Source of the DNA: Pelomonas sp. Root1444
GTDB lineage: Bacteria; Pseudomonadota; Gammaproteobacteria; Burkholderiales; Burkholderiaceae_C
Length of the DNA stretch: 64,000 nucleotides
Direction: 5' to 3'
Assembly: GCF_001426885.1 (NCBI RefSeq)
Contig: NZ_LMFP01000001.1
Coordinates: 478,213-542,212, forward strand
This document shows, one piece after another, positions 5,572 through 23,370 of the stretch. The stretch's first letter is position 1. Each line of letters starts with the position of its first letter. Made by a program: the position numbers and the translations under genes. Under the pieces are notes generated by a model, which did no database searches, was not told the origin of the DNA, and saw only the letters and a list, made by a program, of their open reading frames with translations.

Positions 5572-6114
5572 GTGCGCAACATCCTCTGGGTGGCGCTGAC
5601 CGCCCTCTATCCCGTTCTCGTCTACCTGGGACTCGCGCATGCCGAGCCCCGGGTGTTGGCGCTTTTGCTGCTGGCGCTGGCGCTGGCGCGCTACCTCGCG
5701 TCGCGCAGCCGCCAGGCGCTGGCCGTCGCGCTGGCCGGGCTGGTGCTGGCCGCGCTGACGGCCTGGTCCAACCAGCTGCTGCCGCTGAAGATGTATCCGG
5801 TCGCGATGAATGTCGCGATGCTGGCGCTGTTCGGCGCCAGCCTGCTCAAGGGCCCCACCGTCGTCGAGCGCCTGGCGCGCCTGCACGACCCGGCGCTGGA
5901 CGCCCACGGCGTCGCCTACACGCGCCGCGTCACGCAGGTCTGGTGCGGCTTCTTCATCGTCAACGGCAGCATCGGCCTGGCCACGGCGCTGTGGGCCAGC
6001 GAGCAGACCTGGGCGCTGTACAACGGCTTCATCACCTACGTGCTGATGGGCAGCCTGATGGGTGGTGAGTGGCTGGTGCGCCGCCGCGTGCGGGCTGGCA
6101 AGCATGTGGCGTGA
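5572..6114 (+). CDS. COG4648-type integral membrane protein of the polyene locus (ApeG-type)
   Basis: This 180-residue protein has about five hydrophobic segments, beginning at the N-terminus (WVALTALYPVLVYLGLA) and including FFIVNGSIGLATALWAS and YNGFITYVLMGSLMGGEWLV. It matches the membrane protein usually encoded between the carrier proteins and the AMP-ligase in aryl polyene loci. Its biochemical role is not established. It may anchor the biosynthetic enzymes at the inner membrane. The GTG at 5572 is the only sensible start near the hydrophobic N-terminus. The 3' end overlaps the next gene by 11 bases. Confidence 0.75.
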   Translation: MRNILWVALTALYPVLVYLGLAHAEPRVLALLLLALALARYLASRSRQALAVALAGLVLAALTAWSNQLLPLKMYPVAMNVAMLALFGASLLKGPTVVERLARLHDPALDAHGVAYTRRVTQVWCGFFIVNGSIGLATALWASEQTWALYNGFITYVLMGSLMGGEWLVRRRVRAGKHVA

Positions 6115-7804
6115 ACTCCAACTTGGCCTCGCCGGCGCATCGAGCCCGGCGCGCGCTGCGCGGCCCGTCGGCTGGCGTGCCGGCCGCGCGGTCATGCCGG
6201 CCGCGTTCATGGCGCAGGCAGCGGGCTGGTTCGCGCATTTCGAAGCCCTCGCCGCCGCCGACGTCGCGCTGTACTTCGAAGACACGCTGCAGGCCGCCGC
6301 CGCACTGTTCGGCGCCTGGCATGCGCGCAAGACCGTCTGGTGGCCGGGCGACGCACTGCCGGCCACGGCGCAGCGCCTGGCGGAGCAGGTCGGCGCCTTC
6401 GCCGGCGACTGGCCCGGCCGCGCCGATGCGACGGCCGCCGTGGCCGATGCCGCCGAGCCCGGCTGGCAGCCGCTCGACCCGCAGGCTCGCCAGCTCGTCG
6501 TCTTCACCTCCGGCAGCAGCGGCGAGCCCACGGCCATCTCCAAGCGGCTGCACCAGCTGTTCGACGAGGTGCGCGCGCTGGAGGCCGAGTTCGGCGCCCG
6601 CATCGACGACGCAACCATCCACGCCACCGTCAGCCACCAGCACATCTACGGCCTGCTGTTCCGCATCCTGTGGCCGCTGGCCGCCGGCCGGCCGCTGGCG
6701 GCCGAGCGCGTGGCCTATCTGGAAGACCTGCACGCCGCGCCTGGCCGCATCGCGCTGATCGCCAGCCCCGCGCACCTCAAGCGCCTGCAGCTGGCCAATA
6801 CGGGCGACCTGCCCGAGCGCCTCGCCGCCGTGTTCAGCTCCGGCGGCCCGCTGCCCGCCGATGCGCTGCCGCCGTGCGCGGAACGCCTGGGCCAGACGCC
6901 CATCGAGATCTACGGCAGCAGCGAGACCGGCGGCGTGGCGTGGCGCCAGCGCCCGCCCGGCGCCGGCGATGCCGAACCCTGGCGCGCGATGCCCGGCGTC
7001 GAATGGCAGCTGGCCGACGGCCAGCTGCAGCTGCGCTCGGCCCACATCGGCAACCACACGGGCAGCGACTGGTACACCGCCGCCGACCACGCTCGCGCCG
7101 AAGGCCCCGGCTTCGTGCTGCTGGGCCGCGCGGACCGCATCGTCAAGATCGAAGAGAAGCGCGTGTCGCTGGCCGCCGTGGAGCAGGCGCTGCTGGACGG
7201 CGGCCAGGTCCGCGAAGCCCGCGCGCTGCTGCTGCCCGGCTCGCGCCAGGAGCTGGGCGTCGTGCTCGTGCCCACGCCCGAAGGCTGGGCGCGCGTCGAC
7301 ACCGAAGGCCGCGCCGCCTGGCTCGCGCCGCTGCGCGAGCGCCTGGCCGCGTTGCTGGAAGCCACCGTGCGCCCGCGGCGCTGGCGGCTGGTCAGCGACC
7401 TGCCTGCCAACACGCAGGGCAAGACCACGCAGGCCGCGTTGCAGGCGCTGTTCGACCCGCTGCGCCCGGCCGCCCGCGTGCTCAAGCGCGAGCCGCTGTC
7501 GGCCACGCTGCGCATCGACATCGAGGCGCGGTACCCGGGCTTCGACGGCCATTTCGAGAACCAGCCCGTGTTGCCCGGCGTCGTGCAGCTGGACTGGGCC
7601 GAGCGCTTCGCGCGCGAGCTGTTCGCGTTGCAGCCGGCGTTTGCCGGTCTGGAGCAGCTCAAGTTCCAGCAGGTCATCCGGCCTGGCAGCACCGTCGAGC
7701 TGACGTTGACCGTCAATGCCGACGGCAGCGAGCTGCGCTTCGCACTGGCCAGCGAGCGCGGCCCGCACGCCAGCGGCAAGCTGCGCTTTGGAGCGGCGGC
7801 GTGA
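6104..7804 (+). CDS. AMP-dependent ligase fused to a hot-dog dehydratase (ApeH-ApeI fusion)
   Basis: This 566-residue protein combines two functions. Residues about 40-450 are an acyl-adenylating enzyme: the phosphate-binding loop TSGSSGEPTAISK is at 135-147, the A5-like GSSETGG starts at 271, LLGRADRIVKIEEKRVSL starts at 339, and the catalytic lysine in NTQGK is K440. Residues about 457-566 are a 3-hydroxyacyl-ACP dehydratase-like hot-dog domain with HFENQPVLPGVVQ, its catalytic-type histidine being H483. In Escherichia and Xenorhabdus loci these are the separate proteins ApeH and ApeI. The protein probably loads the aryl starter on an ACP and, with the hot-dog protein at 17288, dehydrates each 3-hydroxy intermediate. 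The ATG at 6104 overlaps the membrane protein gene by 11 bases. Confidence 0.87.
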   Translation: MWRELQLGLAGASSPARAARPVGWRAGRAVMPAAFMAQAAGWFAHFEALAAADVALYFEDTLQAAAALFGAWHARKTVWWPGDALPATAQRLAEQVGAFAGDWPGRADATAAVADAAEPGWQPLDPQARQLVVFTSGSSGEPTAISKRLHQLFDEVRALEAEFGARIDDATIHATVSHQHIYGLLFRILWPLAAGRPLAAERVAYLEDLHAAPGRIALIASPAHLKRLQLANTGDLPERLAAVFSSGGPLPADALPPCAERLGQTPIEIYGSSETGGVAWRQRPPGAGDAEPWRAMPGVEWQLADGQLQLRSAHIGNHTGSDWYTAADHARAEGPGFVLLGRADRIVKIEEKRVSLAAVEQALLDGGQVREARALLLPGSRQELGVVLVPTPEGWARVDTEGRAAWLAPLRERLAALLEATVRPRRWRLVSDLPANTQGKTTQAALQALFDPLRPAARVLKREPLSATLRIDIEARYPGFDGHFENQPVLPGVVQLDWAERFARELFALQPAFAGLEQLKFQQVIRPGSTVELTLTVNADGSELRFALASERGPHASGKLRFGAAA

Positions 7805-8613
7805 GCGCCGCACGGCCGCCCGGAGGCGCTCGGCTCCCGCTTGGCGGGACGGCGCGGAGCGCGAAGGGTGCCCCCATCTCAGTCTGCGCCGTCATCCCCG
7901 TCTACAACCACGGCGGCACGGTCGGCGGCGTCGCTGCCCGGCTGCGAGCGCAAGGGCTGCCGGTGCTGCTGGTGGACGACGGCAGCGAGGCCGCCACCGC
8001 CGCGCAGCTCGACGCGCTGGCGCAGCAGGACGGCATCCACCTCGTGCGCCTGCCGCACAACCAGGGCAAGGGCGCGGCCGTCATCGCCGGCATGCGCGCC
8101 GCGGCGGGGCAGGGCTACACGCACAGCCTGCAGATCGACGCCGACGGCCAGCACGATGCGGGCGATGCCGCGCGCTTCGTCGCCGCCGCCGCGGCCCGGC
8201 CCGATGCGCTGATCTGCGGCTGCCCGATCTACGACGCCTCCGTGCCGCGCGCGCGGCTGTACGGCCGCTATGCGACGCACATCTGGGTCTGGATCAACAC
8301 GCTGAGCTTCGCCGTGCGCGACTCGATGTGCGGCTTTCGCATCTACCCGCTGGCCGCCACGCTGCCGCTGCTGGCGCGTGCGTCGCTGGGCCGGCGCATG
8401 GACTTCGACACCGAGATCGCGGTGCGCATGGTCTGGGCCGGTGTGCCGGTCGTCAACCAACCGACGCGCGTTCACTACCCGGTCGGCGGCATCTCGCACT
8501 TCCGCATCTGGCGCGACAACGTGCTGATCTCGGCCATGCACACGCGGCTGTTCTTCGGCATGCTGTGGCGCAGCCCGCTGCTGCTGGCGCGCAAGCTGCG
8601 AGGCTCGGCATGA
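7801..8613 (+). CDS. Glycosyltransferase family 2 protein of the polyene locus
   Basis: This is a GT-A fold, DPM-like family 2 glycosyltransferase of 270 residues. The nucleotide-binding motif VDDGS is at 58-62 and the metal-binding IDADGQHD spans residues 112-119, followed by the expected DSMCGFRIYP. It probably adds a sugar to the polyene or its lipid anchor. GTG at 7801 overlaps the preceding stop as GTGA. The first about 25 codons hold a palindromic repeat (see 7825-7862), and recognisable homology begins only at ISVCAVIPVYN. The N-terminal extension is therefore odd and the true start is uncertain. Confidence 0.85.
   Translation: MSAARPPGGARLPLGGTARSAKGAPISVCAVIPVYNHGGTVGGVAARLRAQGLPVLLVDDGSEAATAAQLDALAQQDGIHLVRLPHNQGKGAAVIAGMRAAAGQGYTHSLQIDADGQHDAGDAARFVAAAAARPDALICGCPIYDASVPRARLYGRYATHIWVWINTLSFAVRDSMCGFRIYPLAATLPLLARASLGRRMDFDTEIAVRMVWAGVPVVNQPTRVHYPVGGISHFRIWRDNVLISAMHTRLFFGMLWRSPLLLARKLRGSA
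7825..7862. repeat. REP-like palindromic element inside the glycosyltransferase 5' end
   Basis: Two nested inverted repeats lie here: an outer stem GCGCTC (7826-7831) with GAGCGC (7857-7862), and an inner stem TCCCGC (7835-7840) with GCGGGA (7844-7849) around a TTG loop. The arrangement and G/C-rich composition resemble small dispersed palindromic elements common in Burkholderiales intergenic DNA. Here it sits in frame between the gene junction at 7801-7804 and the first conserved codons of the glycosyltransferase. No second copy was found by eye in this window. Confidence 0.5.
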
Positions 8614-9548
8614 CGGCTCGCGCGCAGCACTGGGCGTACCTGGGCGAGACCACCTTCGTCAGCGGCATCTGGCTGCTGTACGGCGTGCACAAGCTGTTCG
8701 GCCGGCGCCTGGTGCGCTGGTTGATGTCGCCGGTCGTGCTCGTGCACTGGCTCACGCGGCCGGCGCTGCGCGGCGCCTCGCTGGCCTACCTGCGCCACCT
8801 GCACCGCGCCGAGCCCGGCGTGTTCCCGCGCGAGCCCGGCTGGCGCGAGGGCCTGCGCCATGTCGCCTGCTTCGCCGAGACCATGCTCGACAAGCTGCTC
8901 GCCATGGCCGGCCGCTATCCCGTCGAGGCGGTGCGCGAGCAGGACTTCTCCGTCGTCGACGCCATGCTGTCCCAGGACCGTGGCGGCATCTTCATCACCG
9001 CGCACATGGGCTGTCTGGAGCTGTGCCGCATGATCGGCAAGGCCAAGCATGGCCTGAAGCTGACGGTGCTGGTGCACACCCGCCATGCCCAGGCCTTCAA
9101 CCGCATCCTCCAGCGGCTGGACCCGGCCTCCGCCGTCAACCTGCTGGAGGTCACCGACTTCGGCCCGGGCATGGCCCTGCAGCTCAAGGGCCTGGTGGAC
9201 GCCGGCGGCTGGGTGGCCATCGCCGGCGACCGCGTGCCCATCCATTCCGCGCAGACAACCACCGTCGACTTCCTCGGCGCGCCCGCGCCGCTGCCCGTGG
9301 GCGCCTATGTGCTCGCGAGCGTGCTGCAGTGCCCGCTGGTGCTGCTGACTTGCCTGCACCGGGGCGCCGGCTACGAGATCCGCTTCGAGCTGCTGGCCGA
9401 GCGCGTGCTGCTGCCGCGCGCCCAGCGGCACGAGAGGCTGGCCCAATACGCCCAGGCCTACGCGCGCATCCTGCAGCGTCGCCTGCGCGAATCGCCTTAT
9501 GACTGGTTCAACTTCTACGCCTTCTGGGACAGCCCGCATGCCGTCTGA
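8610..9548 (+). CDS. LpxL/HtrB-like lipid acyltransferase of the polyene locus
   Basis: This 312-residue protein looks like a member of the lysophospholipid/lipid A (LpxL, HtrB) acyltransferase family. It has the catalytic HX4E-type box HMGCLE, a downstream GDRVP segment and the C-terminal YDWFNFYAFW, together with an N-terminal hydrophobic stretch. In other aryl polyene loci a glycosyltransferase and an acyltransferase of this kind form one polypeptide. Here they are two genes overlapping by ATGA at 8610. It probably acylates the glycosylated polyene to anchor it in the membrane, which is inference from family and context. Confidence 0.82.
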   Translation: MTARAQHWAYLGETTFVSGIWLLYGVHKLFGRRLVRWLMSPVVLVHWLTRPALRGASLAYLRHLHRAEPGVFPREPGWREGLRHVACFAETMLDKLLAMAGRYPVEAVREQDFSVVDAMLSQDRGGIFITAHMGCLELCRMIGKAKHGLKLTVLVHTRHAQAFNRILQRLDPASAVNLLEVTDFGPGMALQLKGLVDAGGWVAIAGDRVPIHSAQTTTVDFLGAPAPLPVGAYVLASVLQCPLVLLTCLHRGAGYEIRFELLAERVLLPRAQRHERLAQYAQAYARILQRRLRESPYDWFNFYAFWDSPHAV

Positions 9549-11073
9549 CATCTTCTTTGACGGCCGCCCGCTGAGCCTGGACGACATCGCCGCTCTCGCG
9601 CGCCGCGAGGCCGTGGCCCGCCTGGGCGACGCGCCCGACTTTGTGCGCCGCATCGACGCCGGCGCCGAGTTCATCGCCCGCCTGCTGGCCGAGGACGGCG
9701 TCGTCTACGGCGTCACCACCGGCTACGGCGACTCCTGCACGGTCAGCATCCCGCCCGCGCTCGTCGCCGAGCTGCCGCGCCATCTCTACACCTACCACGG
9801 CATCGGCGCCGGCCCCATGCTGGCACCCGAGCAGGTGAGGGCGGTGCTGGCGGTGCGGCTGCAGTCGCTGGCGCAGGGCGTGTCGGGCGTGAGCTACGCG
9901 CTGCTCGAGCAACTCGCCGCGCTGCTGCGGCACGACATCCTGCCGCTGATCCCCAGCGAAGGCTCGGTTGGCGCGAGCGGCGACCTGACGCCGCTGAGCT
10001 ACGTGGCCGCCGTGCTGTGCGGCGAGCGCGACGTGTGGTTCCAGGGCCGGCAGATGCCCGCGGCCGAGGCGCTCGCGGCCGTGGGCCTGAAGCCGCACGT
10101 GCTGCGGCCCAAGGAAGGCCTGGCCATCATGAACGGCACGGCCGTCATGACCGCGCTGGCCTGCCTGGCATTCCAGCGCGCCGAAAGGCTGGCGCTGCTG
10201 GCCACGCGCATCACCGCCGCCAACGTCGTGGCCAGTGCCGGCAATGCACACCACTTCGACGAGCGCCTGTTCGCCGTCAAGCCGCACGCCGGCCAGCAGC
10301 GCGTCGCCGCACGGCTGCGCGCGGACCTCGCCAGTGATCGACCGAGCCGCAACGAGCAACGCCTGCAGGACCGCTACTCGCTGCGCTGCGCGCCCCATGT
10401 CATCGGCGTGCTGGAAGACGCGTTGCCCTGGCTGCGCCAGCTCATCGAGAACGAGCTGAACAGCGCCAACGACAACCCGCTCGTCGACGCCGAGGAAGAG
10501 CGCGTGCTGCACGGCGGCCACTTCTACGGCGGCCACATTGCGATGGCGATGGACACGCTGAAGACGGCGGTCGCCAATGTCGCCGACCTGCTGGACCGCC
10601 AGCTCGCGCTGCTGGTGGACACGCGCTTCAACCACGGCCTGCCGTCCAACCTGAGCGGTGCTGTGGGTGAGCGCGCGGCGATCAACCACGGCCTGAAGGC
10701 GCTGCAGATCAGCGTCTCTGCGTGGACGGCCGAGGCCCTGAAGCAGACCATGCCGGCCTCGGTCTTCAGCCGCAGCACCGAGTGCCACAACCAGGACAAG
10801 GTCAGCATGGGCAGCATCGCCGCGCGCGATGCGCTGCGCGTGCTGGACTTGAGCGAGCAGGTCGTCGCCGGCCTGCTCATCAGCGCCCGCCAGGGCCTGG
10901 GCTTGCGCCAGCGCCTGGGTGGCCTGCAGCTGAGCCCGTCGCTGTCCGCCTGGTACGAGCAGCTCTGCGCGCGCCTGCCACTCATCGACGAAGACCGCGC
11001 GCTGGACGCCGAGCTGCAGATGCTGCTGCGCGACATCCGCGACCCGCACGGAGCCCTGCATGCGCCCGCCTGA
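9538..11073 (+). CDS. Aromatic amino acid ammonia-lyase (HAL/PAL/TAL family)
   Basis: This 511-residue MIO enzyme removes ammonia from an aromatic amino acid. The Ala-Ser-Gly triad that forms the MIO prosthetic group is A146-S147-G148 in GSVGASGDLTPLSY, and YGVTTGYGDS is conserved near the N-terminus. At the position where histidine ammonia-lyases carry NQED, the sequence has N418-Q-D-K in HNQDKVSMG, closer to tyrosine and phenylalanine lyases. The selectivity loop contains Y86-H87. In a polyene locus the likely product is 4-coumarate or cinnamate feeding the aryl starter. The ATG at 9538 overlaps the acyltransferase by 11 bases; upstream in-frame starts lie inside it. Substrate is not settled. 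Confidence 0.88.
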   Translation: MPSDIFFDGRPLSLDDIAALARREAVARLGDAPDFVRRIDAGAEFIARLLAEDGVVYGVTTGYGDSCTVSIPPALVAELPRHLYTYHGIGAGPMLAPEQVRAVLAVRLQSLAQGVSGVSYALLEQLAALLRHDILPLIPSEGSVGASGDLTPLSYVAAVLCGERDVWFQGRQMPAAEALAAVGLKPHVLRPKEGLAIMNGTAVMTALACLAFQRAERLALLATRITAANVVASAGNAHHFDERLFAVKPHAGQQRVAARLRADLASDRPSRNEQRLQDRYSLRCAPHVIGVLEDALPWLRQLIENELNSANDNPLVDAEEERVLHGGHFYGGHIAMAMDTLKTAVANVADLLDRQLALLVDTRFNHGLPSNLSGAVGERAAINHGLKALQISVSAWTAEALKQTMPASVFSRSTECHNQDKVSMGSIAARDALRVLDLSEQVVAGLLISARQGLGLRQRLGGLQLSPSLSAWYEQLCARLPLIDEDRALDAELQMLLRDIRDPHGALHAPA

Positions 11074-11491
11074 AGACCCGCGCCTGGCGCACGAGATCGA
11101 GATCACGCCGGCCTTCCACGATCTCGACCCGATGGAGATCGTCTGGCACGGCCGCTACGTGCAGTACCTGGAGCAGGCGCGCTGCGCGCTGCTGCGGCGC
11201 TTCAACTACGACTACCCGGCGATGCGCGCCAGCGGCTATGCCTGGCCCATCATCCACCTGCAGCTGAAGTACGTGCGCTCCGCCGAGTACGGCATGCGCC
11301 TGGGCGTGCGCGCCTGCATCACCGAGTGGGAGCACCGCCTGCGCATCGACTACACGGTGCGCGACCTCGCCACCGGTGTGCGCCTGACCAAGGCCCACAC
11401 GCTGCAGGTGGCCGTGGACACGCGCACCAAGGAAATGCTGTTCGCCAGCCCGCCCGTCCTGTTCGAACGCCTGGGCATCCCTCTGCCATGA
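11060..11491 (+). CDS. Acyl-ACP/CoA thioesterase, 4HBT hot-dog family (ApeK-type)
   Basis: This 143-residue single hot-dog protein belongs to the YbgC/FadM thioesterase group. The hallmark helix and active-site region are DLDPMEIVWHGRYVQYLEQA, with the aspartate and the WHGRYVQYLE motif intact. It would release the finished chain or edit misloaded carrier proteins in polyene synthesis. It overlaps the ammonia-lyase by 14 bases and the next gene by ATGA, so it is part of the same translation unit. The position matches thioesterases of other aryl polyene loci. Confidence 0.85.
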   Translation: MRPPEDPRLAHEIEITPAFHDLDPMEIVWHGRYVQYLEQARCALLRRFNYDYPAMRASGYAWPIIHLQLKYVRSAEYGMRLGVRACITEWEHRLRIDYTVRDLATGVRLTKAHTLQVAVDTRTKEMLFASPPVLFERLGIPLP

Positions 11492-12075
11492 AGCGCCGCC
11501 TCTTCCTCCTCGCCGCCGTCCCGCTGCCCGCGCTGGCCGATGCCATCGCGCAGATCCAGCAGCGTCTCGTCAGCGGGCCGGTGCAGCGCGGCCGCTTCGA
11601 GCAGGACAAGGTGCTCGCCGGCTTCGCCAAGCCGTTGAAGAGCCAGGGCGACTACCTGCTGGTGCGCGGCAAGGGCCTGATCTGGCGCACGACCGCGCCG
11701 TTCGCGAGCCAGCTGGTGCTGACGCGCGACCGCATCGCCGGCGCCGGTGGTCTGCAGCTGGATGCCAGCAAGGAGCCCGGCATCCGCGTCGTCACCAGCT
11801 TGATGCTGTCGCTGCTGGATGGCGACCTCGGTGCGCTGCAGCAGGCCTTCGACGTGCAGGCCAGCGTTCAGGGCGAGAAAGCCTGGCGCGCGGCGCTGAG
11901 ACCGAAGGCCACCGCGCTGGCGCAGCTTTTCAGTCGCATCGAGCTGGAGGGCGACCGCCAGCTGCGCCGCATCGTCATGACCGAAGCGCAGGGCGACACG
12001 ACGACGCTGCGCTTCGACGAGCAGCCGCGCGACCCCGCCGCGCCGAGCGCCGACGAGGCGAAACAGCTTGGTTGA
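11488..12075 (+). CDS. LolA-like outer membrane lipoprotein carrier of the polyene locus
   Basis: This is a 195-residue exported protein with a short signal sequence (MKRRLFLLAAVPLPALA) and the LolA-type fold signature: an N-terminal FEQDKVLAGFAKPLKSQG, followed by GKGLIWRTTAPFASQLVLT. Related proteins in aryl polyene loci are proposed to move the lipid-linked polyene across the periplasm. The ATG at 11488 overlaps the thioesterase stop as ATGA and is placed just before the signal peptide. It works next to the MMPL exporter encoded downstream. Confidence 0.83.
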   Translation: MKRRLFLLAAVPLPALADAIAQIQQRLVSGPVQRGRFEQDKVLAGFAKPLKSQGDYLLVRGKGLIWRTTAPFASQLVLTRDRIAGAGGLQLDASKEPGIRVVTSLMLSLLDGDLGALQQAFDVQASVQGEKAWRAALRPKATALAQLFSRIELEGDRQLRRIVMTEAQGDTTTLRFDEQPRDPAAPSADEAKQLG

Positions 12076-14365
12076 TCGCCCGCGCAAATTGGCGCCCTGG
12101 CTGTGGGCGCTGGCGCTGCTGCTGACGGCCGCAGCCCTGACGCTGGCTGCCGTCACCGGCCGCGTGCGCATCAACACCGACGTGCTGGCCATGCTGCCCA
12201 AGGACGAGCGCCGGCCCGAGGTGGAGCAGGCGCTGGCGGCGCTGGCCAAGGCGGGCGAGGGCCGCGTCATCGTGCTGCTGCGCGCCCAGGCCGACAGCGA
12301 GGCGGCGATGGACCGATTCATCGCCCGGCTGCAGGCCGATGCGCCCGGCCTCGCCGTGCGTCATCGGGTGTCCGACGCGCAGCAGGCCGACTGGCTGGGC
12401 TTCTTCGCCCCGCAGCGCGGTGCGCTGTTGACCGACGCGCAGCGCGCCCAGCTGCAAGCCGCCGCGCCCGAGCCGCTCGCGCAGCAGGCGCTGCAAGGGC
12501 TGATGCAGCCCATGGGACTGCCGCGCGTGGGCCGCTGGATCGACGACCCCTTCAACACGCTGGGCACCTGGCTGGCCGAACGCGCGCAGGGCAGCAAGGT
12601 GCGCGCCCTCGGCGGCCGCCTGCGCCTGGCCGATGCGCAGGGCGACTGGATGCTGGCGCTGATCGACAGCGGCGCCAGCGCGTTTGCGTTGAAGGACAAC
12701 GAACGCATCGCCGGCGCGCTGGCCCATGCCCGCGCCGCCGTGCCGGAGGCGCAGGTGCTGGCCGCCGGCGTGCCGCTGCATGCGCACGCCGCCGCCACGC
12801 AGGCGCAGCGCGAGATGCACGTCATCGGCGCCGGCTCGCTGGTCGGCGTGTTCGCGCTGAGCTGGCTGGCATTCGCGCGCATCCGGCCGCGGCTGCTGGT
12901 GCTGCTGTCGGTGGGCAGCGGCCTGCTGGTCGCGATCGCGGCCACGCTGGCCGTGTTCGGCGAGCTGCACCTCATCACGCTGGTGTTCGGCGCCAGCCTG
13001 GTCGGCGTGGCCGAGAACTACGCGAGCAGCCACTACGCCAGCCGCATCGGCCAGCCGCCCGCGGCCCGCTTCGCCTTGATGCGCGAGCAGCTGCCGACGA
13101 TGGTGCTGGCGCTCAGCACCACGCTGGCCGGCTATGCGCTGCTGGCGACCACGCCGTTCCCCGGCCTGCAGCAGGTGGCGCTGTTCTCGGCCGCGGGCCT
13201 CACCGCCGCCTTCGTCAGCACCTGGCTGTGGTTCCCGCACCTGGACGCCGGCAGCGTGCCCGAGCGGCCGCTGACGCGTGCGCTGGGCCGGGCCTGGCAG
13301 CGCTGGCCGCAGCTCGGCCGCCGCAGCGGCGCCATCACTGGCCTGGCCGTCGCCGTCGTGCTGGCCGCTGCCGCATGGCGCGGGCGGGCCAACGACGACA
13401 TCCGCCTGCTGCAGAACACGCCGCCCGCGCTGATGCAGGACCAGATCGACATCGGCCGCCGCCTGGACCTGCCCAGCCCGGCGCAGTTCTTCCTGCTTAG
13501 TGCCGCCAGCGAGGCCCAGCTGCTGGCGCGCGAGGAGGCGTTGAAGGCGCGGCTGGCCGTTATGAATGGCGTCGCCGGCTGGCAGGCCGTGTCCGACTGG
13601 GTGCCGTCGCCCACGCGGCAGTTGGAGGACGCGAAGCTGGTGGCGGGCCGCTGGGCCGAGGCCGCGCCGCTCGTCGCCGCGCAGCTGGGCCAGCCCGTGC
13701 CGCAGCGCGAGGCCGTCGCCCCACCGCTGCTGACGGTGGACGCCTGGCGCGCCGCGCCCGTCAGCGAGGCCGCGCGCCACCAGTGGCTGGGCCGCGGCGC
13801 GGACGGCCAGTGGCACAGCGTGCTGATGCTGCGCGGCGTGTCGCGCGACGCGCTGCCGCAGCTCGCCGCACTGGCCGACGACACCGCCGTGCGCTGGGTC
13901 GACAAGGTCGCCGACGTGTCCGAGCTGCTGGCCCGCCAACGCGTGCGCATGCTGGGCGTGCTGGCCATCGCCGTCGTGGCCGTGGCCGCGCTGCTGGCCT
14001 GGCGGCTGCGCGCCGCGTGGTGGCGCGCGCTCGTGCCCACGCTGCTGGCCGGCGCGCTCGCGCTGGCGGCCACCGCGCTGGCCGGTCAGCCCTGGCAGCT
14101 CTTCCATGTGTTGGCGCTGCTGCTGCTGCTGGGCGTGGGCGTGGACTACGGCATCTTCCTGCTCGCACAGCCGAGCCGGCGCGACCTGCGCGGCTTCGTC
14201 TCCATCACACTGGCGGCCGCCAGCACCTGGCTGGCCTTCGGGCTGCTGGCGCTGTCGGGCACGCCGGCGCTGCGTGCCTTCGGCTTCACCCTCGGCCTGG
14301 GCATCGCCCTGGCCTGGTTCCTCACCCCCTTCTTCGTCCCCGACCATGACCCTCCAAACCACTGA
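12068..14365 (+). CDS. MMPL/RND-family exporter of the polyene locus
   Basis: This 765-residue membrane protein has the two-repeat layout of MMPL exporters. One membrane helix at the N-terminus precedes a periplasmic domain, then a helix bundle (including GAGSLVGVFALSWLAFARI and LITLVFGASLVGVAENYASS). This is repeated in the second half, which has LLLLLGVGVDYGIFLLAQPS. It likely extracts the lipidated polyene from the inner membrane using the proton gradient. The start is TTG at 12068, overlapping the previous stop by 8 bases. No better start precedes the first membrane segment. Length is normal for MMPL proteins in these loci. Confidence 0.87.
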   Translation: MVDRPRKLAPWLWALALLLTAAALTLAAVTGRVRINTDVLAMLPKDERRPEVEQALAALAKAGEGRVIVLLRAQADSEAAMDRFIARLQADAPGLAVRHRVSDAQQADWLGFFAPQRGALLTDAQRAQLQAAAPEPLAQQALQGLMQPMGLPRVGRWIDDPFNTLGTWLAERAQGSKVRALGGRLRLADAQGDWMLALIDSGASAFALKDNERIAGALAHARAAVPEAQVLAAGVPLHAHAAATQAQREMHVIGAGSLVGVFALSWLAFARIRPRLLVLLSVGSGLLVAIAATLAVFGELHLITLVFGASLVGVAENYASSHYASRIGQPPAARFALMREQLPTMVLALSTTLAGYALLATTPFPGLQQVALFSAAGLTAAFVSTWLWFPHLDAGSVPERPLTRALGRAWQRWPQLGRRSGAITGLAVAVVLAAAAWRGRANDDIRLLQNTPPALMQDQIDIGRRLDLPSPAQFFLLSAASEAQLLAREEALKARLAVMNGVAGWQAVSDWVPSPTRQLEDAKLVAGRWAEAAPLVAAQLGQPVPQREAVAPPLLTVDAWRAAPVSEAARHQWLGRGADGQWHSVLMLRGVSRDALPQLAALADDTAVRWVDKVADVSELLARQRVRMLGVLAIAVVAVAALLAWRLRAAWWRALVPTLLAGALALAATALAGQPWQLFHVLALLLLLGVGVDYGIFLLAQPSRRDLRGFVSITLAAASTWLAFGLLALSGTPALRAFGFTLGLGIALAWFLTPFFVPDHDPPNH

Positions 14366-15578
14366 CGTCTGCATCATCGGCGCTGGCCCCGCAGGCGCCG
14401 TTGCCGCAGGGCTGCTGCGTCGCCAGGGCCTGGCGGTGACGGTGCTGGAGCGCCAGGCCTTCCCGCGCTTCTCCATCGGCGAGAGCCTGCTGCCGCAGTC
14501 CATGGCCTTCATCGAGAAGGCCGGCTTCCTGCAGGACGTCGTCGAGGCGGGCTTCCAGTACAAGAACGGCGCGGCCTTCTGCCGTGGCGACAAGCGCACG
14601 GCCTTCGACTTCCGCGACAAGTTCACCGACGGCTGGGCCACCACCTACCAGGTGCAGCGCGCCCACTTCGACCAGGTGCTGGCCAATGGCGCCGCCAAGG
14701 CGGGCGCCGACGTGCGCTACCGCCATGAGGTGACGGCCGTCCGCGTGGCCCCAAGCCAGCGCCCGCAGCTGGACGTGCAGCCGCTGGACGGCGGTGCGCC
14801 GTACACCGTCGAGGCCGGCCACCTGCTGGACGCCAGCGGCTTCGGCCGCACGCTGCCGCGCCTGCTCGACCTGGAGTCGCCGTCGGCCTTTCCCGTGCGC
14901 GCAGCCACCTTCACGCATGTGCAGGACCGCATCAGCGACCCGAGCTTCGACCGCAGCAAGATCCTCGTCACCGTGCATCCGCAAGACGTGGACGTGTGGT
15001 TCTGGACCATCCCGTTCAGCAACGGCCGCTGCTCACTGGGCGTCGTCGCGCGGGCCGAATACTTCGAGCGTTTCCCCGAAGACCCGACCGAGCGGCTCAA
15101 GGCCGTCGTCGCCGAGACGCCGTCGCTCGCCACGCTGCTGCAGGACGCGGTGTGGGACACGCCTGCCAACAGGTTGCAGGGTTATGCCGCCAACGTGAAA
15201 TCGCTGTGGGGCCCGGGCTATGCGCTGCTGGGCAATGCCGGCGAGTTCCTCGACCCGGTGTTCTCCAGCGGCGTGACCATCGCCGTGAAGTCCGCCGACC
15301 TGGCCGTGACCGCGCTGCTGCGCGAGCGGGCCGGCGAGGCGGTGGACTGGGAGGCCGACTACGCCAGGCCGCTGCGCGCGGGCGTGGATGCCTTCCGCGC
15401 GTTCGTTGAGAGCTGGTACCGCGGCGGCTTCCAGGACGTCATCTTCCACGAGCACCCGAACCCCGACATCCGCCGCATGATCTCGTCCATCCTGGCCGGC
15501 TATGCCTGGGACCTCAGCAACCCCTACGTCGCGCATCCCGAGCGCATGCGCACGCTGGAGCAGTTGTGCGCCCCCTGA
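14346..15578 (+). CDS. Flavin-dependent halogenase-like oxidoreductase of the polyene locus
   Basis: This 410-residue FAD protein starts with the dinucleotide fold IIGAGPAGA (G12, G14, G17). It carries two halogenase hallmarks: W218-F-W-T-I-P223 fits WxWxIP, and K73 in GFQYKNGA sits where flavin halogenases place the lysine that forms hypohalous acid adducts. GESLLP at 45-50 is also typical. It may add bromine or chlorine to the aryl head group, as in brominated xanthomonadins, but many relatives in aryl polyene loci are annotated only as FAD-dependent oxidoreductases. ATG 14346 overlaps the exporter gene by 20 bases. No flavin reductase is seen nearby. Confidence 0.78.
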   Translation: MTLQTTDVCIIGAGPAGAVAAGLLRRQGLAVTVLERQAFPRFSIGESLLPQSMAFIEKAGFLQDVVEAGFQYKNGAAFCRGDKRTAFDFRDKFTDGWATTYQVQRAHFDQVLANGAAKAGADVRYRHEVTAVRVAPSQRPQLDVQPLDGGAPYTVEAGHLLDASGFGRTLPRLLDLESPSAFPVRAATFTHVQDRISDPSFDRSKILVTVHPQDVDVWFWTIPFSNGRCSLGVVARAEYFERFPEDPTERLKAVVAETPSLATLLQDAVWDTPANRLQGYAANVKSLWGPGYALLGNAGEFLDPVFSSGVTIAVKSADLAVTALLRERAGEAVDWEADYARPLRAGVDAFRAFVESWYRGGFQDVIFHEHPNPDIRRMISSILAGYAWDLSNPYVAHPERMRTLEQLCAP

Positions 15579-16114
15579 TGCTGCTTGCCGGGCTGCTGTT
15601 GGCAGCCTGCCAGACGCTGCCGCCGCCGGCCATGCTGCCGGCGTTGCAGCTGGCGCCCGCGGCATTTGGTGCCAATCTGCAGCTTGCGCAGCGGCTGACG
15701 GTGACCGAAGCGCCGGACGACCCGGGCGGCGCCGTCACCGAACGCCAGCTCGACACGCTGCTGCAGGTCGATGCCAGCCAGCTGCAGCTGGCCGGCCTGG
15801 CGCTGGGCCAACGCGTGCTGACGCTGCGCTGGGACGGCCGCGATCTGGCCGTGCAACGCCACCCCATGCTGCCGGCCGCCGTCGACCCGGCACGCGTGCT
15901 GCGCGACATCGCGCTGGTCTTCGCGCCGCTGCCGGCCTTGCAGGCCGCGCTGCCGGACGGCTGGACGCTGGATGAAGCCAGGAACGAGCGCACGCTGCGC
16001 CAGGCCGGCGAGCCGCGCCTGACCGTGCGCTACCTGGACGGCCGGGCGCGGGTCGAGATCGACAATCGCGCCGAGCGCTACCAACTGCGCATCGAATCGC
16101 GCCCGCTTGAGTGA
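15566..16114 (+). CDS. DUF3261-type lipoprotein of the polyene locus
   Basis: This 182-residue protein has a lipoprotein signal peptide with lipobox LAAC (Cys 15). The rest is a soluble domain of mostly beta prediction, ending with ERYQLRIESRPLE. Family and position (between the FAD enzyme and a ketosynthase) match the DUF3261 lipoprotein of aryl polyene loci. It is probably an outer-membrane acceptor, acting like LolB for the LolA-like carrier, but this is inference. GTG 15566 overlaps the preceding gene by 13 bases and lies directly before the signal peptide. Confidence 0.78.
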   Translation: MRPLMLLAGLLLAACQTLPPPAMLPALQLAPAAFGANLQLAQRLTVTEAPDDPGGAVTERQLDTLLQVDASQLQLAGLALGQRVLTLRWDGRDLAVQRHPMLPAAVDPARVLRDIALVFAPLPALQAALPDGWTLDEARNERTLRQAGEPRLTVRYLDGRARVEIDNRAERYQLRIESRPLE

Positions 16115-17298
16115 AGGCCATGAGTTTCTATCTGAACGCCCTGGGCGTCGTCTGCGCCGCCGGCCATGACGCCGACTCGCTGGCCCAGTCGCTGTGGGCC
16201 ACCACGCCCGGCGGCGTGCAGCCCGAGCCCTGGCGCGGCCGCACGCTGCACCTGGGCCGCGTGCGCCAGCCGCTGCCGCTGCCCGACGCCACCGCCCAGC
16301 GCAGCCGCAACAACGCGCTGCTGCTGAGCGCGCTGCAACCCATCCGCGCCGCGGTGGACGCCGCGCGCGAGCGCTTCGGCCCGCTGCGCGTGGCCGTCGT
16401 GCTGGGCACCAGCACCTCCGGCGTCGGCGAGAGCGAGGCCGCCTGGGCCCACCACCGCGAACACGGCGAACTGCCGGCCTGGCACGACGTGCGCCAGCAG
16501 GAGATCGGCTCCGGCGCGTCGCTGCTGGCGGCCGAGCTGGGCGTGCTCGGGCCGGCCTACGTCATCTCCACGGCCTGCTCGTCCAGCAGCAAGGCGCTGG
16601 CGAGCGCGGCGCGGCTGCTGCAGGCCGGCCTGGCGGACGCCGTCGTCTGCGGCGGCGCGGACAGCCTGTGCGACTTCACGGTCGCGGGTTTCGCCTCGCT
16701 GGAGGCCGTCAGCGACGCACGCTGCAACCCGCTGAGCGCCAACCGCTGCGGCATCAACATCGGCGAGGCCGGCGCGCTGTTCTTGATGACGCGCGAAAGA
16801 AATGTGGGCGCAGGCCCGGCCGTGCGCCTCGCCGGCTGGGGCGAGACCAGCGACGCCCACCACATCTCGGCACCCGAGCCCAGCGGCCGCGGCGCCGAGG
16901 CCGCGATGCGCGCGGCGCTCGCCATGGCCGGCCTCACGCCGGCCGACATCGGCTACCTCAACCTGCACGGCACCGCCACGCCGCACAACGACGCGATGGA
17001 GAGCGAGGCCGTCGCCCGCGTCTTCGGCCTCGACACCCCCTGCAGTTCCACCAAGCCGCTGACCGGCCACACGCTGGGCGCTGCCGGCGCGCTGGAGGCA
17101 GCCATCGCCTGGCTGACACTGCTGGGCGACGGCGGCCTGCCGGGGCATCACTTCGACGGCGAGCGCGACGCCGCGCTGCCGGCCATACGCCTCGTCACGC
17201 CGGGTGAGCGGCTGGCGGCGGCCCCGCGCGCCGTGCTGTCCAACTCTTTCGCGTTCGGCGGCAGCAATGCCGCATTGGTGCTCATCCGTGAAGACTGA
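16111..17298 (+). CDS. apeO: Beta-ketoacyl-ACP synthase, active partner of the chain-length factor
   Basis: This 395-residue ketosynthase has a complete Cys-His-His triad: C156 in STACSSSSKAL, H286 in NLHGTATPH and H320 in PLTGHTLGAAGALEA. The C-terminal SNSFAFGGSNAALVL is conserved. By correspondence with known loci it is ApeO, which condenses malonyl units with the chain-length factor ApeC. GTG 16111 overlaps the lipoprotein stop as GTGA. An ATG three codons later is an equally possible start, which would shift all numbers by three. Confidence 0.9.
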   Translation: MKAMSFYLNALGVVCAAGHDADSLAQSLWATTPGGVQPEPWRGRTLHLGRVRQPLPLPDATAQRSRNNALLLSALQPIRAAVDAARERFGPLRVAVVLGTSTSGVGESEAAWAHHREHGELPAWHDVRQQEIGSGASLLAAELGVLGPAYVISTACSSSSKALASAARLLQAGLADAVVCGGADSLCDFTVAGFASLEAVSDARCNPLSANRCGINIGEAGALFLMTRERNVGAGPAVRLAGWGETSDAHHISAPEPSGRGAEAAMRAALAMAGLTPADIGYLNLHGTATPHNDAMESEAVARVFGLDTPCSSTKPLTGHTLGAAGALEAAIAWLTLLGDGGLPGHHFDGERDAALPAIRLVTPGERLAAAPRAVLSNSFAFGGSNAALVLIRED

Positions 17299-17752
17299 CC
17301 TTGCCATCGCCGACCTGGTGCCGCACAGCGGCGCCATGAGCTGGCTCGACCGCGTCATCGAGGCCGATGCCGAATCGCTGCTGGCCGAAGCCACTCTCCG
17401 CGCCGACCACCTGCTGCTGCGCGACGGCCAGCTCGGCGCCGCTGCCGGCGTCGAATACATGGCCCAGGCCGCCGCAGCCTGGGCCGGCTGGCAACGCCAT
17501 GCGCAAGCTGGCGCGGGCGGCGCAGCGCGCATCGGCTTCCTGCTCGGCACGCGGCGCTACCAGTGCAGCCGGCCGGCCTTCCAGGTCGGCGACGTGCTGC
17601 GCGTGAGCGTGCGGCGCGTCTTCCAGGCCGACAACGGCCTCGGCCAGTTCGAATGCGCCATCTGCATCGACGGTGCGGAGATTGCGCGCGCCAGCCTCAA
17701 CGTCTTCGGGCCTGACGACCCGGAGGCCTTCCTGAACGGACAGACCCCATGA
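17288..17752 (+). CDS. apeP: Hot-dog 3-hydroxyacyl-ACP dehydratase subunit
   Basis: This 154-residue protein shows the ApeP-type hot-dog signature VPHSGAMSWLDRV near the N-terminus and GVEYMAQAAAAWAGW in the hot-dog helix. In studied aryl polyene systems ApeP forms a heterodimer with ApeI to dehydrate 3-hydroxyacyl-ACP. The ApeI partner here is the C-terminal domain of the fused ligase at 6104-7804. The GTG at 17288 overlaps apeO by 11 bases and the 3' end overlaps the ketoreductase gene as ATGA. Confidence 0.87.
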   Translation: MKTDLAIADLVPHSGAMSWLDRVIEADAESLLAEATLRADHLLLRDGQLGAAAGVEYMAQAAAAWAGWQRHAQAGAGGAARIGFLLGTRRYQCSRPAFQVGDVLRVSVRRVFQADNGLGQFECAICIDGAEIARASLNVFGPDDPEAFLNGQTP

Positions 17753-18483
17753 GCAGTAACTCCACCGTCCTGGTGACCGGCTCCAGCCGCGGCATCGGCC
17801 GCGCCATCGCGCTGCGGCTGGCCCGCGACGGCCACGACCTCGTCCTGCACTGCCGCAGCCGCATCGACGAGGCCGAGGCCGCCGCCGCCGAGATCCGTGC
17901 GCTCGGCCGCCAAGCGCGCGTCCTGCAGTTCGACGTGGCCGACCGCGCCGCCTGCGAGGCCGCGCTGCTGGCCGACGTCGAGGCCCATGGCTGCTACTAC
18001 GGCATCGTCTGCAACGCCGGCATCACGCGCGACGGCGCCTTCCCGGCGCTGACCGGCGAAGACTGGGACGCCGTCATCCACACCAACCTCGACGCCTTCT
18101 ACAACGTGCTGCAGCCGCTCACCATGCCGCTGGTGCGCCGCCGCAAGCCCGGCCGCATCGTCACGCTGGCGTCGGTGTCGGGCCTGATGGGCAACCGCGG
18201 GCAGGTCAACTACAGTGCCGCGAAGGCCGGCATCATCGGCGCGACCAAGGCGCTGGCGGTTGAGCTTGCCAGCCGCAAGATCACGGTCAACTGCGTCGCA
18301 CCGGGCCTGATCGAGACGGACATGATCGACGCGCAGGTGCTGCAGCATGCGATGCAGCTGATCCCGGCGCAGCGCGTCGGGCAGCCCGAGGAGGTGGCCG
18401 CGCTGGTGGCCTTCTTGATGAGCGAGGACGCGGGCTACATCACGCGTCAAGTCATTTCAGTGAACGGGGGGATGGTCGGGTGA
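17749..18483 (+). CDS. apeQ: 3-ketoacyl-ACP reductase (FabG-like)
   Basis: This 244-residue short-chain dehydrogenase has the cofactor loop TGSSRGIG (residues 10-17), the NAG motif, and the catalytic set S142, Y155 and K159 in NYSAAKAG. NADPH preference is suggested by R14 in the loop. It reduces the 3-keto intermediate in each polyene extension cycle. Its neighbours and overlaps (ATGA upstream, GTGA downstream) fix its place in the operon. FabG proper is closely related, but the context favours ApeQ. Confidence 0.9.
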   Translation: MSSNSTVLVTGSSRGIGRAIALRLARDGHDLVLHCRSRIDEAEAAAAEIRALGRQARVLQFDVADRAACEAALLADVEAHGCYYGIVCNAGITRDGAFPALTGEDWDAVIHTNLDAFYNVLQPLTMPLVRRRKPGRIVTLASVSGLMGNRGQVNYSAAKAGIIGATKALAVELASRKITVNCVAPGLIETDMIDAQVLQHAMQLIPAQRVGQPEEVAALVAFLMSEDAGYITRQVISVNGGMVG

Positions 18484-19715
18484 GCAGCAAGAGAGTCGTC
18501 ATCACCGGCATCGGTGCGCTGTCGCCGCTGGGGCATGACGCCGAGACCGTCATGGACAGCCTGCGTGCCGAGACCAACAAGGTCCAGCGCATGGCCGAAT
18601 GGGCCGGCTACGAGGGCCTGAACACGCAGGTCGGCGTGCCCTGCGCGCCCTTCGAGCTGCCGGCCGACCGCTACAACCGCAAGACCATGCGCAGCATGGG
18701 CCGCGTGGCGCAGCTGGCCACGCGCTCGGCCGAGCTGGCGCTGCAGCAGGCCGGCCTCATCGGCGACCCGCTGGTGACCAGCGGCCGCATGGGCGTCAGC
18801 TTCGGCAGCTCCAGCGGCACGCCCAGCGCCATCGGCGACTTCGGCCGCATGATGACCGTCAAGAGCATCGAGGGCATCAACGCCAACACCTACGTGAAGA
18901 TGATGTCGCACACGGCGACCGTCAACATCGCGGTGTTCTTCGGCATCACCGGCCGCATCATCACGACCAGCAGCGCCTGCACCTCCGGCAGCCAGGGCCT
19001 GGGCTATGCGTACGAGGCCATCAAGGGCGGCCGCCAGGTCGCCATGCTGGCGGGCGGGGCCGAGGAGCTGGACGCGACGCAGGCGGCCGTGTTCGACACG
19101 CTGTTCGCCACCAGCACCAAGTACAACGACCAGCCGCGCCTGACGCCGCGTCCGTTCGACGCCGATCGCGACGGCCTGGTGCTCGGCGAAGGCGCCTGCA
19201 CCTTCGTGCTGGAGGAGTACGAGCATGCGAAGGCCCGCGGCGCGACGCTGCTCGGCGAGATCGTCGGTTACGGCACCAACTGCGATGGCACGCACGTCAC
19301 GCAGCCGCAGTCCGCGACGATGGCGCAGGCCATGCGCCTGGCACTGCAAGACGCCGTGCTCGATGGCGCGGCCATCCCCTACGTCAACGCCCACGGCACC
19401 AGCACCGACCAGGGCGACGTGGCGGAGAGCCAGGGCACGCACAGCGTGTTCGGGTCGGGCGTGGCCATCTCGTCGCTGAAGAGCTACATGGGCCACACGT
19501 TGGGCGCTTGCGGCGCACTGGAGGCCTGGATGACGCTGGAGATGATGAAGGCCGGCTGGTTCGCGCCCACGCTCAACCTGCAGCGCGTGGACCCGCGCTG
19601 CGGTGAGCTCGACTACATCTTGGCCGGTGGCCGCAAGCTGCAGACCGAGTTCGCGATGACCAACAATTTCGCGTTCGGCGGGATCAACACGTCGTTGATC
19701 CTGCGTCGGCTGTGA
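18480..19715 (+). CDS. apeR: Beta-ketoacyl-ACP synthase II-like, second polyene ketosynthase
   Basis: This 411-residue FabF-like ketosynthase has the full triad C167 (SSACTSGSQGLGY), H305 (NAHGTSTDQGD) and H339 (SYMGHTLGACGALEA), and ends with NFAFGGINTSLI. It corresponds to ApeR, the homodimeric ketosynthase that acts alongside ApeO-ApeC. It is the last gene of the unbroken overlapping chain that began at 3400. GTG 18480 is shared with the ketoreductase stop. Confidence 0.9.
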   Translation: MSSKRVVITGIGALSPLGHDAETVMDSLRAETNKVQRMAEWAGYEGLNTQVGVPCAPFELPADRYNRKTMRSMGRVAQLATRSAELALQQAGLIGDPLVTSGRMGVSFGSSSGTPSAIGDFGRMMTVKSIEGINANTYVKMMSHTATVNIAVFFGITGRIITTSSACTSGSQGLGYAYEAIKGGRQVAMLAGGAEELDATQAAVFDTLFATSTKYNDQPRLTPRPFDADRDGLVLGEGACTFVLEEYEHAKARGATLLGEIVGYGTNCDGTHVTQPQSATMAQAMRLALQDAVLDGAAIPYVNAHGTSTDQGDVAESQGTHSVFGSGVAISSLKSYMGHTLGACGALEAWMTLEMMKAGWFAPTLNLQRVDPRCGELDYILAGGRKLQTEFAMTNNFAFGGINTSLILRRL

Positions 19716-20269: not shown

Positions 20270-20710
20270 ATGAAGTCCCGTCTCGTGGCCCTGGCCGTCG
20301 TTGCTGCCGTGTCCAGTGCACCCGCATTCGCGCGTGACACCGTGCTGCACATTCCACTGTCCGACGTGCTGGACATGCCCGAGGCCAAGGAAAAGCTGGA
20401 CCCGAGCTTCAAGTTCCTGCTGGCCGGCCAGGCCGCGCCCAAGGTCATCAAGCGCTTTGCCACCGACGTGAGCAACCCCAAGACCAACGGCTTCGGCAAG
20501 AGCGACGAGTTCGGCTGCAAGTGGGCGGCGCTTTCCGCGCTGATCAACCTGCAGGACGGCGCCAAGCGCCATGGCGCCAATGCGGTCATCGACATCGTCA
20601 GCTACTACAAGAAGAACGAATACAAGAGCGCGACGGACTTCGAATGCCATGCCGGCGCACTCCTCATCGGTGTGGCGCTGCGCGGCACTTACGCCCAAGT
20701 GGCCGAGTAA
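20270..20710 (+). CDS. Exported protein of the type often labelled 'excinuclease ATPase subunit' in polyene loci
   Basis: This 146-residue protein starts with a signal peptide (LVALAVVAAVSSAPAFA) and continues DTVLHIPLSDVLDMPEAKEK. Two later cysteines (FGCKWAA and FECHAG) could form a disulfide. No ATPase or DNA-repair motif is visible, so the traditional excinuclease label is misleading. The conserved GANAVIDIVSYYKKNE segment resembles small YbjQ/heavy-metal-like folds only loosely. AAGGAG at 20257-20262 fixes the ATG at 20270. It probably works in the envelope with the polyene export genes. Confidence 0.72.
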   Translation: MKSRLVALAVVAAVSSAPAFARDTVLHIPLSDVLDMPEAKEKLDPSFKFLLAGQAAPKVIKRFATDVSNPKTNGFGKSDEFGCKWAALSALINLQDGAKRHGANAVIDIVSYYKKNEYKSATDFECHAGALLIGVALRGTYAQVAE

Positions 20711-20727
20711 GCACGCTGCCTGATGCG

Positions 20728-21390
20728 GTGAGCCTGCTCTGCCTGCTGGTCCCCGAGCCCGAGCTGCAGGCCGGCATGGCGCCGCCTGGCCAGTGGCTGA
20801 CGCCCACCGAAGCCGCGCGCCTGCAGTCGCTCGGCACCGAAGCGCGGCGCCGCACCTTCCTCGCCGGCCGCTGGCTGGCGCGCCAGGCAGTGCAGCAGTG
20901 GCTGGGCACCGACGGCCTGCCTGCGCTGACCGTCGCGGGCAGCGGCGCCTGCCATGTGGCCGGTGCGGGCGGCGTGTTCGTCTCCATCAGCCACAGCGCG
21001 GGCCATGTCGCCTGCGCGGTGGCGGCCGTGCCGGTCGGCGTCGATGTCGAGCATCTGGCGCGGCCGCGCGACCACCTTGCGCTCGCGGGCGCCGTGCACA
21101 GCGCGGCCCAGCGAGAGCAGCTCGCCGCGCTCGCGCCTGCGGCGCGCGCCGAGCCCTTCCTGCGCGCCTGGACGATCAAGGAAGCCTGGCTCAAGGCCCG
21201 CGAGCAAGGCCTGGACTTCGCGCTGATGCGCTCGCTCGACTTCGACGACGACCCGCAGGGCGACGTCGCCGTGGCGACGCTGGGCGGCCTGGTGCTGGCG
21301 GTCGCCGGCGACCCGCAGCTGCCGCCGCGCATCGAAGGCCCCACGAATGCAGCCTGGCGGCGTTGCCGCACGCGCCGGACACCCACCTAA
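20728..21390 (+). CDS. 4'-phosphopantetheinyl transferase, Sfp type
   Basis: This 220-residue enzyme transfers the phosphopantetheine arm of CoA to carrier proteins. The metal-binding GVDVEHL has D106 and E108, and the second motif is WTIKEAWLKA with K151 and E152. The upstream ISHSAGHVACAVA motif is also typical. Its location 1 kb after the polyene operon suggests that it activates the two ACPs encoded at 4965 and 5250. The start is uncertain: GTG 20728 is the first plausible initiator that does not overlap the previous gene, and no strong ribosome-binding site is seen. Confidence 0.88.
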   Translation: MSLLCLLVPEPELQAGMAPPGQWLTPTEAARLQSLGTEARRRTFLAGRWLARQAVQQWLGTDGLPALTVAGSGACHVAGAGGVFVSISHSAGHVACAVAAVPVGVDVEHLARPRDHLALAGAVHSAAQREQLAALAPAARAEPFLRAWTIKEAWLKAREQGLDFALMRSLDFDDDPQGDVAVATLGGLVLAVAGDPQLPPRIEGPTNAAWRRCRTRRTPT

Positions 21391-23134: not shown

Positions 23135-23370
23135 CGTTGAGCTCCCTGTGTATGGATGGATTGGTGGTGGCGGCGCGATTCTAGAAAGCTGTGCCCGGCA
23201 CGTGCCCGGTGCTTCCCATGAATCTCCGCATCGCATGTGCAGCGGCCCGCACGCAACCTTCGCGGCATGCGGTAATCCTCAGCACGCGGCGGGCGCAGAC
23301 CATGACGCGCCATTGCCGCCGCGTTGAAGTCGTAGACTGCCGCCGCCTTTCATCCCGGGGAGATCCAAGA

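Follow-up and report, generated by a model that had tools for sequence, protein, structure and literature searches.

A halogenase-like FAD enzyme in an aryl polyene locus of Pelomonas sp. Root1444 and its probable role

Does the FAD-dependent enzyme encoded within the aryl polyene locus of Pelomonas sp. Root1444 halogenate the product of that locus, or does it carry out some other reaction on a halogenase scaffold? The locus lies in a stretch of 64,000 nucleotides (contig NZ_LMFP01000001.1, positions 478,213 to 542,212), which was analysed as a whole and is referred to here as the window, and the gene in question is an open reading frame (ORF) at 14346-15578 on its forward strand, encoding 410 amino acids (aa) plus stop. 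Its motifs, their alignment and conservation, and the predicted fold, together with the linkage of the gene to aryl polyene loci and its clean loss in a relative, point to a short FADH2-dependent halogenase of variant B, a type working on carrier-bound or phenolic substrates, which would tailor the aryl head group of the operon's aryl polyene. This reading, built on sequence comparisons and a predicted model, is given a probability of about 0.74.

Motifs and fold of the encoded protein

The original prediction had seen halogenase hallmarks in this protein, namely the GxGxxG of the FAD fold, a WxWxIP-type motif (W218-F-W-T-I-P223), and a lysine (K73, in GFQYKNGA) at the place of the catalytic lysine of flavin halogenases. 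The 410-aa frame and the three motifs were all found at these places. An upstream ATG at 14106 is located in the same open frame and would extend the product to 490 aa; 14346 is preferred as the start, since almost all orthologues match from residues 1-8, an exception being that of genome G261, which matches only from residue 72.

K73, in the context GFQYKNGAAF, stands opposite a lysine in all five of the alignments printed (3nix, CndH, ChlB4, CmlS, and a Bmp2 mutant chain). The lysines of CndH, ChlB4, CmlS, and Bmp2 we take to be catalytic and comparable in place to K79 of PrnA, which agrees with the position proposed for K73. In the same five alignments, WFWTIP faces WIWVIP, WFWYIP, WMWQIP, WVWMIP, and WSWIIP, respectively. 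A further segment, FLDPVFSSG, faces FVDPVFSSG of CndH as well as FTDPLFSQG of CmlS, and was assigned as a halide-side loop on the basis of the pattern F..P..S.G, which presumably marks that loop.

Conservation was read from an alignment of 57 rows (the window protein, 3nix, and 55 loci), of which 56 were counted, L041 being left out. K73, W218, W220, I222, P223, F301, P304, S307, and G309 are invariant in all 56. Of 80 named loci, 79 could be read and show WxWxIP together with a lysine within the expected segment; the remaining one (L092) gave no open frame under the pattern. These loci had been retrieved with the patterns FPRF[SV]IGES and [GA]EFLDPVF, and their reading required GESL and F.DP.FSSG; thus, these two segments are selected for by the search itself, and the lysine and WxWxIP are unselected. 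GNA precedes the FLDP loop in all 79 loci read, and GAS takes its place in at least one further orthologue, L064; GDA occupies it in CndH, CmlS, QhpG, and LodB-like proteins, and in a second, Xanthomonas-type group of halogenase-like proteins (type b) treated below.

At the level of protein families, Pfam Trp_halogenase (PF04820) matches the window protein with 76.3 bits, against a gathering cut-off of 21; in the genome search, the match is split, with 37.7 bits for one piece and 36.5 bits for the other. Passing this cut-off is what the protein shares with the tryptophan halogenases proper, whereas 13 other genes of the same genome score far above it (383-651 bits). The scores for the CmlS equivalog NF033113 (138 bits, curated cut-off 900) and for the QhpG hydroxylase model NF049967 (94.7 bits, curated cut-off 240) are both below threshold. 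The 13 further Trp halogenase family genes, all of them matched over the full length, seem many for one genome, and WQWRIP occurs in the eight of them that were read.

The predicted model of the window protein (pLDDT 93.0) has 3nix as its closest solved structure, with a Z of 54.7 and 40 % identity over 399 residues in a model-based structure alignment. Next come ChlB4 (Z 44.4), PltA (44.1), Mpy16 (43.5), FasV (43.0), and Bmp2 (43.0 and 42.6), followed at lower values by RadH (39.2), CndH (38.6), p-hydroxybenzoate hydroxylase (35.3), and CmlS (35.1). The alignments with ChlB4, PltA, Mpy16, FasV, Bmp2, RadH, and CndH span 355-394 residues, which fits a halogenase fold. In the sequence matches to the Protein Data Bank (PDB), the nine chains ranked after 3nix are all named halogenases, and PltA is matched with an E of 1.9e-28. 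The original prediction had pointed to three enzymes for comparison: CmlS bore out both K73 and WFWTIP, PltA is represented by the sequence and structure matches just given, and PrnA is absent from the sequence matches and the structure-comparison rows obtained for the window protein.

Two groups of known proteins resemble it most. The variant B halogenases ChlB4, PltA, Mpy16, and Bmp2 have pyrrole or aryl groups bound to carrier proteins as their substrates; they are like the window protein in fold (Z 42.6-44.4) and length, and the lysine and WxWxIP are common to it and to ChlB4 and Bmp2 (aligned) and Mpy16 (read). They differ in sequence, with 24-27 % identity, and ahead of the FLDP loop, ChlB4, Mpy16, and Bmp2 carry GDA where the window clade mostly has GNA. 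The protein of 3nix, a structural genomics entry from Cytophaga hutchinsonii named 'flavoprotein/dehydrogenase', has the common lysine, WIWVIP, and FLDPIFSSG, and belongs to the same clade as the window protein.

Linkage to aryl polyene loci and loss in a relative

The gene is located inside a run of co-directed, mostly overlapping genes (Table 1), where ketosynthase (KS), second KS, ketoreductase, dehydratase, acyl carrier protein (ACP), ligase, LolA, exporter, and ammonia-lyase genes co-occur. This gene content marks the locus as an aryl polyene cluster with an ammonia-lyase. In the nearest named organism, Pelomonas sp. Root1237, the protein is 93 % identical, and its locus (L065) matches 16 of the 18 locus queries.

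Among 398 genomes of the window's phylum, with presence set at E up to 1e-50, the halogenase-like gene was found in 47 (about 12 %), the window's own included. All 46 other gene-bearing genomes have an ApeO-type KS, which is no more than 14 kb from the gene in 45 of them and on the same strand in 39 of these 45; in the exception, G383, the listed KS is 777 kb away. A Fisher test of the co-occurrence of gene and KS gives a p of 2.4e-36 (n = 398), with related genomes counted as independent. The lists for this test exclude the window's own genome, so that 46 of the 47 gene matches entered, and the KS list comprises 87 genomes, cut at an E of 1.6e-67 that was set after the results had been seen (a limit of 1e-40 gives 167 genomes). 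The phylum searches scored at most four candidates per genome, and genes can have been missed. At least three of the four core genes lie nearby in 75 of the 80 named loci, a count in which the two KS queries can cross-match, and an ammonia-lyase is present in 65. The linkage to aryl polyene genes speaks against tryptophan as the substrate.

The clean loss of the gene was observed in G446, a genome that shares its genus code with the gene-bearing G358. In its locus (L218, 9460-9713), the exporter and DUF3261 matches are 253 bases apart; blastn against the flanks in G358 aligned 487 bases at 91 % and 694 bases at 82 %, and between the paired flanks there are 112 bases in G446 versus 1259 in G358. 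The other matched locus genes remain in place; only the halogenase-like gene is gone, which fits the loss of a tailoring step. A search of the G446 genome with a second-type protein as query, which does pick up window-type genes elsewhere (at 1e-46), found no gene of this kind. In another genome, G867 (L177, about 9337-10513), the halogenase gene is in two frames and the neighbouring exporter gene is also in two pieces, which may reflect decay or an assembly error.

Proposed role and competing readings

The following scheme is our inference as regards the activity as a halogenase, its substrate and timing, and the position and halide involved. The ammonia-lyase would supply a 4-coumarate-type starter, which would be loaded onto the ACP by the ligase and then extended by a type II polyketide synthase. 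Reduced flavin, delivered by a reductase encoded elsewhere, would bind the halogenase and react with O2 to give a C4a-hydroperoxide. A halide positioned at the FLDPVFSSG loop would attack this hydroperoxide, releasing hypohalous acid (HOX). This would pass behind WFWTIP to K73, which would guide the substitution to the head-group carbon ortho to the phenol OH.

Two bacteria connect genes of this kind with described pigments. The aryl polyene locus (L094) of Stenotrophomonas maltophilia IAM 12423, which we take to be the type strain, contains a window-type orthologue, and no second-type gene was found in a search of that genome. A 1985 title cited in PMC3949708 refers to halogenated aryl-polyene pigments in strains of Xanthomonas maltophilia including the type strain; title and gene agree with activity of the window clade, which is no proof of it. 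The other case is arcA of Azoarcus sp. BH72, which is like the window gene in being a halogenase gene at an aryl polyene cluster, the two being likened by description alone. It is listed as such in the arcuflavin gene table of PMC3949708, whereas mass spectra led the same paper to propose a heptaene without bromine for arcuflavin. The earlier halogenase call stands at the level of sequence and fold; its corollary, a halogenated aryl polyene, may hold, and no product data for the window clade were found.

Besides arcuflavin, several points weigh against a halogenase acting on the pigment. The fold alone was rejected as proof, CmlS (Z 35.1) being level with p-hydroxybenzoate hydroxylase, whose Z of 35.3 makes the fold test weakly specific. 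In the tree described below, the window clade stands apart from the six PDB halogenases, with the order of the backbone not resolved, and no bench-tested member of the clade was found in the openly licensed literature. A flavin reductase of PF01613, the one family sought, is present elsewhere in the genome, its sole copy lying on another contig. A strong Trp_halogenase match (628.7 bits) to another gene of the S. maltophilia genome means that the halogenated pigment of this organism is not uniquely explained by the window-type gene. Finally, 41 of the 87 genomes with an ApeO-type KS are without the halogenase-like gene, and within the window's genus the gene occurs in only two of 20 genomes, counting that of the window; it is therefore no fixed part of aryl polyene loci.

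The alternative that survives best, though an unlikely one, is a flavin monooxygenase on a halogenase scaffold, hydroxylating or otherwise oxidising the head group or the polyene. Its precedent is QhpG, described in a passage of PMC7876137 as a hydroxylase with a halogenase-like fold, and it gains from the separate position of the window clade in the tree and from matches to other FAD oxidoreductase models (FAD_binding_3, 70 bits; GG-red-SF, 105.4 bits, under its cut-off of 158.8). It is in the motifs that this alternative meets its difficulty. A control QhpG protein (587.6 bits, above the cut-off of its model) has no lysine and carries WAWMAR at the WxWxIP site, and two LodB-like controls (229.1 and 187.8 bits, cut-off 400) have neither feature, whereas the window clade keeps both in every counted row; these non-halogenase-type controls are three proteins only. 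Passages of PMC5945002 attribute halogen substitution to the conserved lysine, name GxGxxG and WxWxIP as two further conserved regions, quote a tunnel length of about 10 A, and report that changing the lysine to alanine abolishes the activity of BrvH, while WxWxIP is proposed to prevent hydroxylation in a passage of the review PMC10696468. The claim of halogenase hallmarks in the original prediction is borne out by these controls and by the names of the PDB chains.

Slightly less probable still is a true halogenase whose mature pigment is normally free of halogen, because of a halide-poor medium, cryptic halogenation, or a non-pigment substrate. Arcuflavin would be such a case, and reference lists contain a title on a xanthomonadin from X. 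populi that is not brominated. The conserved motif set and the tight linkage to pigment loci argue instead for regular use on the aryl polyene. A dehydrogenase/desaturase or a reductase is very improbable: it is backed by names only ('flavoprotein/dehydrogenase' for 3nix, 'oxidoreductase' for others) that rest on no test seen, and the loss in G446 and the KS genomes without the gene speak against a core redox step. A variant B halogenase acting on the aryl head group is thus the preferred reading, and, given the hallmarks of the enzyme, the yellow pigment of this locus may be halogenated.

The window clade, its relatives and the gene map

The phylogenetic tree comprised 44 proteins, including window-type rows, 3nix, ten second-type rows, and six PDB halogenases. 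The window-type rows group with 3nix in a clade (100/100) whose stem is long (2.03), and type b forms its own clade (98/98). The free tree keeps the two types apart; however, taking them as firmly separate lineages had to be given up, as a single clade with 3nix is not rejected (log-likelihood 2.15 lower, p of the approximately unbiased (AU) test 0.232). For this reason, no claim is made on one versus two recruitments. A grouping of type b with the six PDB halogenases also survives the AU test (p-AU 0.131).

In the family to which G358 belongs, matches were obtained in 92 of 149 genomes, 18 of window type (the broken gene of G867 among them) and 74 with only 30-36 % identity to the window protein. 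Type b proteins (e.g., those of G804, which we place in Xanthomonas, and G927) are like the window protein in standing among aryl polyene-type genes and in having the lysine and a WxWxIP-type motif; the four read carry the lysine, W[MA]WLIP, and FVDP[MV]FSSG. They differ in this low identity, in forming their own clade, and in the absence of an ammonia-lyase match in the 20 kb read. In L172 and L173, type b stands among weak matches to the ligase, acyltransferases, LolA, exporter, and FabG, with no ammonia-lyase or KS match in those 20 kb; L175 and L176 have fewer of these locus matches. We take type b for the xanthomonadin halogenase.

A halogenase at an aryl polyene locus is a known kind of finding, because such genes are in print: in the legend of figure 5 of PMC3691225, in the gene table of PMC3949708, as 'a probable halogenase' of Acetobacteraceae loci in a passage of PMC8776678, and through halogenation named as a head-group variation in a passage of PMC8253772. 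What was not found in the openly licensed literature is the window clade as a separate group, linked to ammonia-lyase loci and including 3nix. The chances appear even that the window clade represents a halogenase lineage devoted to aryl polyenes and separate from the Xanthomonas one; in that case, halogenated aryl polyenes would form a common class of cell-envelope pigments overlooked by structure surveys, and 3nix would be the solved structure of the lineage under a wrong name. If the clade does halogenate, 3nix would gain a function, the label 'oxidoreductase' would be corrected, and whether halogenated aryl polyenes are widespread would become answerable, with the natural gene-loss strain as a control. 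The remark in the original prediction that this position is usually annotated only as an oxidoreductase fits a small sample of plasmid records: of 24 with a match, 13 have no product name (in part owing to gaps in the gene table), and the other 11 read 'NAD(P)/FAD-dependent oxidoreductase' in ten cases and 'tryptophan 7-halogenase' in one.

Table 1. Features of the aryl polyene locus, in window coordinates
Feature	Position	Strand	Basis or remark
Ketoacyl-synthase-like gene (Ketoacyl-synt_2)	3400..4197	+	
Acyltransferase PF01553	4004..4987	+	True start probably downstream of 4004
Acyl carrier protein (PP-binding)	5250..5543	+	
AMP-binding ligase with ApeI-like dehydratase stretch	6062..7804	+	
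Family 2 glycosyltransferase	7888..8280	+	Matched stretch inside ORF 6340-8613
Lipid A-type acyltransferase	8901..9548	+	Start of matched stretch to end of ORF 7716-9548
Aromatic amino acid ammonia-lyase (TAL/HAL type)	9499..11073	+	ASG motif at residue 159
YbgC/FadM-type thioesterase	11060..11491	+	
LolA-like carrier protein	11326..12075	+	
RND-type exporter	12068..14365	+	3' end overlaps start of halogenase gene
FAD-dependent halogenase-like gene (410 aa)	14346..15578	+	ORF, Pfam, PDB sequence and structure matches
GAGPAG, residues 12-17, FAD fold GxGxxG	14379..14396	+	Sequence
Codon of K73, aligned with halogenase lysine	14562..14564	+	Alignments
WFWTIP, residues 218-223, aligned with halogenase WxWxIP	14997..15014	+	Alignments
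FLDPVFSSG, residues 301-309, aligned with FVDPVFSSG of CndH	15246..15272	+	Alignment
DUF3261 gene	15566..16114	+	Start overlaps end of halogenase gene
ApeO-type ketosynthase (PRK09185 family)	16111..17298	+	
ApeP-like dehydratase	17204..17752	+	
FabG2-type ketoreductase	17749..18483	+	
Second ketosynthase (PRK09116 family)	18480..19715	+	
4'-phosphopantetheinyl transferase	20521..21390	+	

Relatives of the window protein beyond its phylum were found in Myxococcota (Corallococcus) and in Bacteroidota (3nix, and Aureispira at 40 %). Some loci depart from the usual arrangement. In three Cupriavidus loci (L082, L086, and L087), only FabG matches were obtained within 10 kb besides the halogenase-like gene, and in L140, a 4-kb contig, no other locus query matched. 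Two window-type copies per genome are present in G614 and G750 (L056, L057, L063, and L064), L063 and L064 forming a separate branch in the tree. In the two-contig genomes G991 and G999 (39 % GC over the 20 kb read), which we assign to Vibrionaceae, the gene is divergent beside the aryl polyene genes, and in G991 (L213, 12811-15210) it adjoins an O-methyltransferase gene. The aryl polyene of Vibrio fischeri ES114 is not known to be halogenated. In the window itself, CsgG-like and GNA1162-like lipoprotein genes follow just past the aryl polyene cluster, at 23191-25152.

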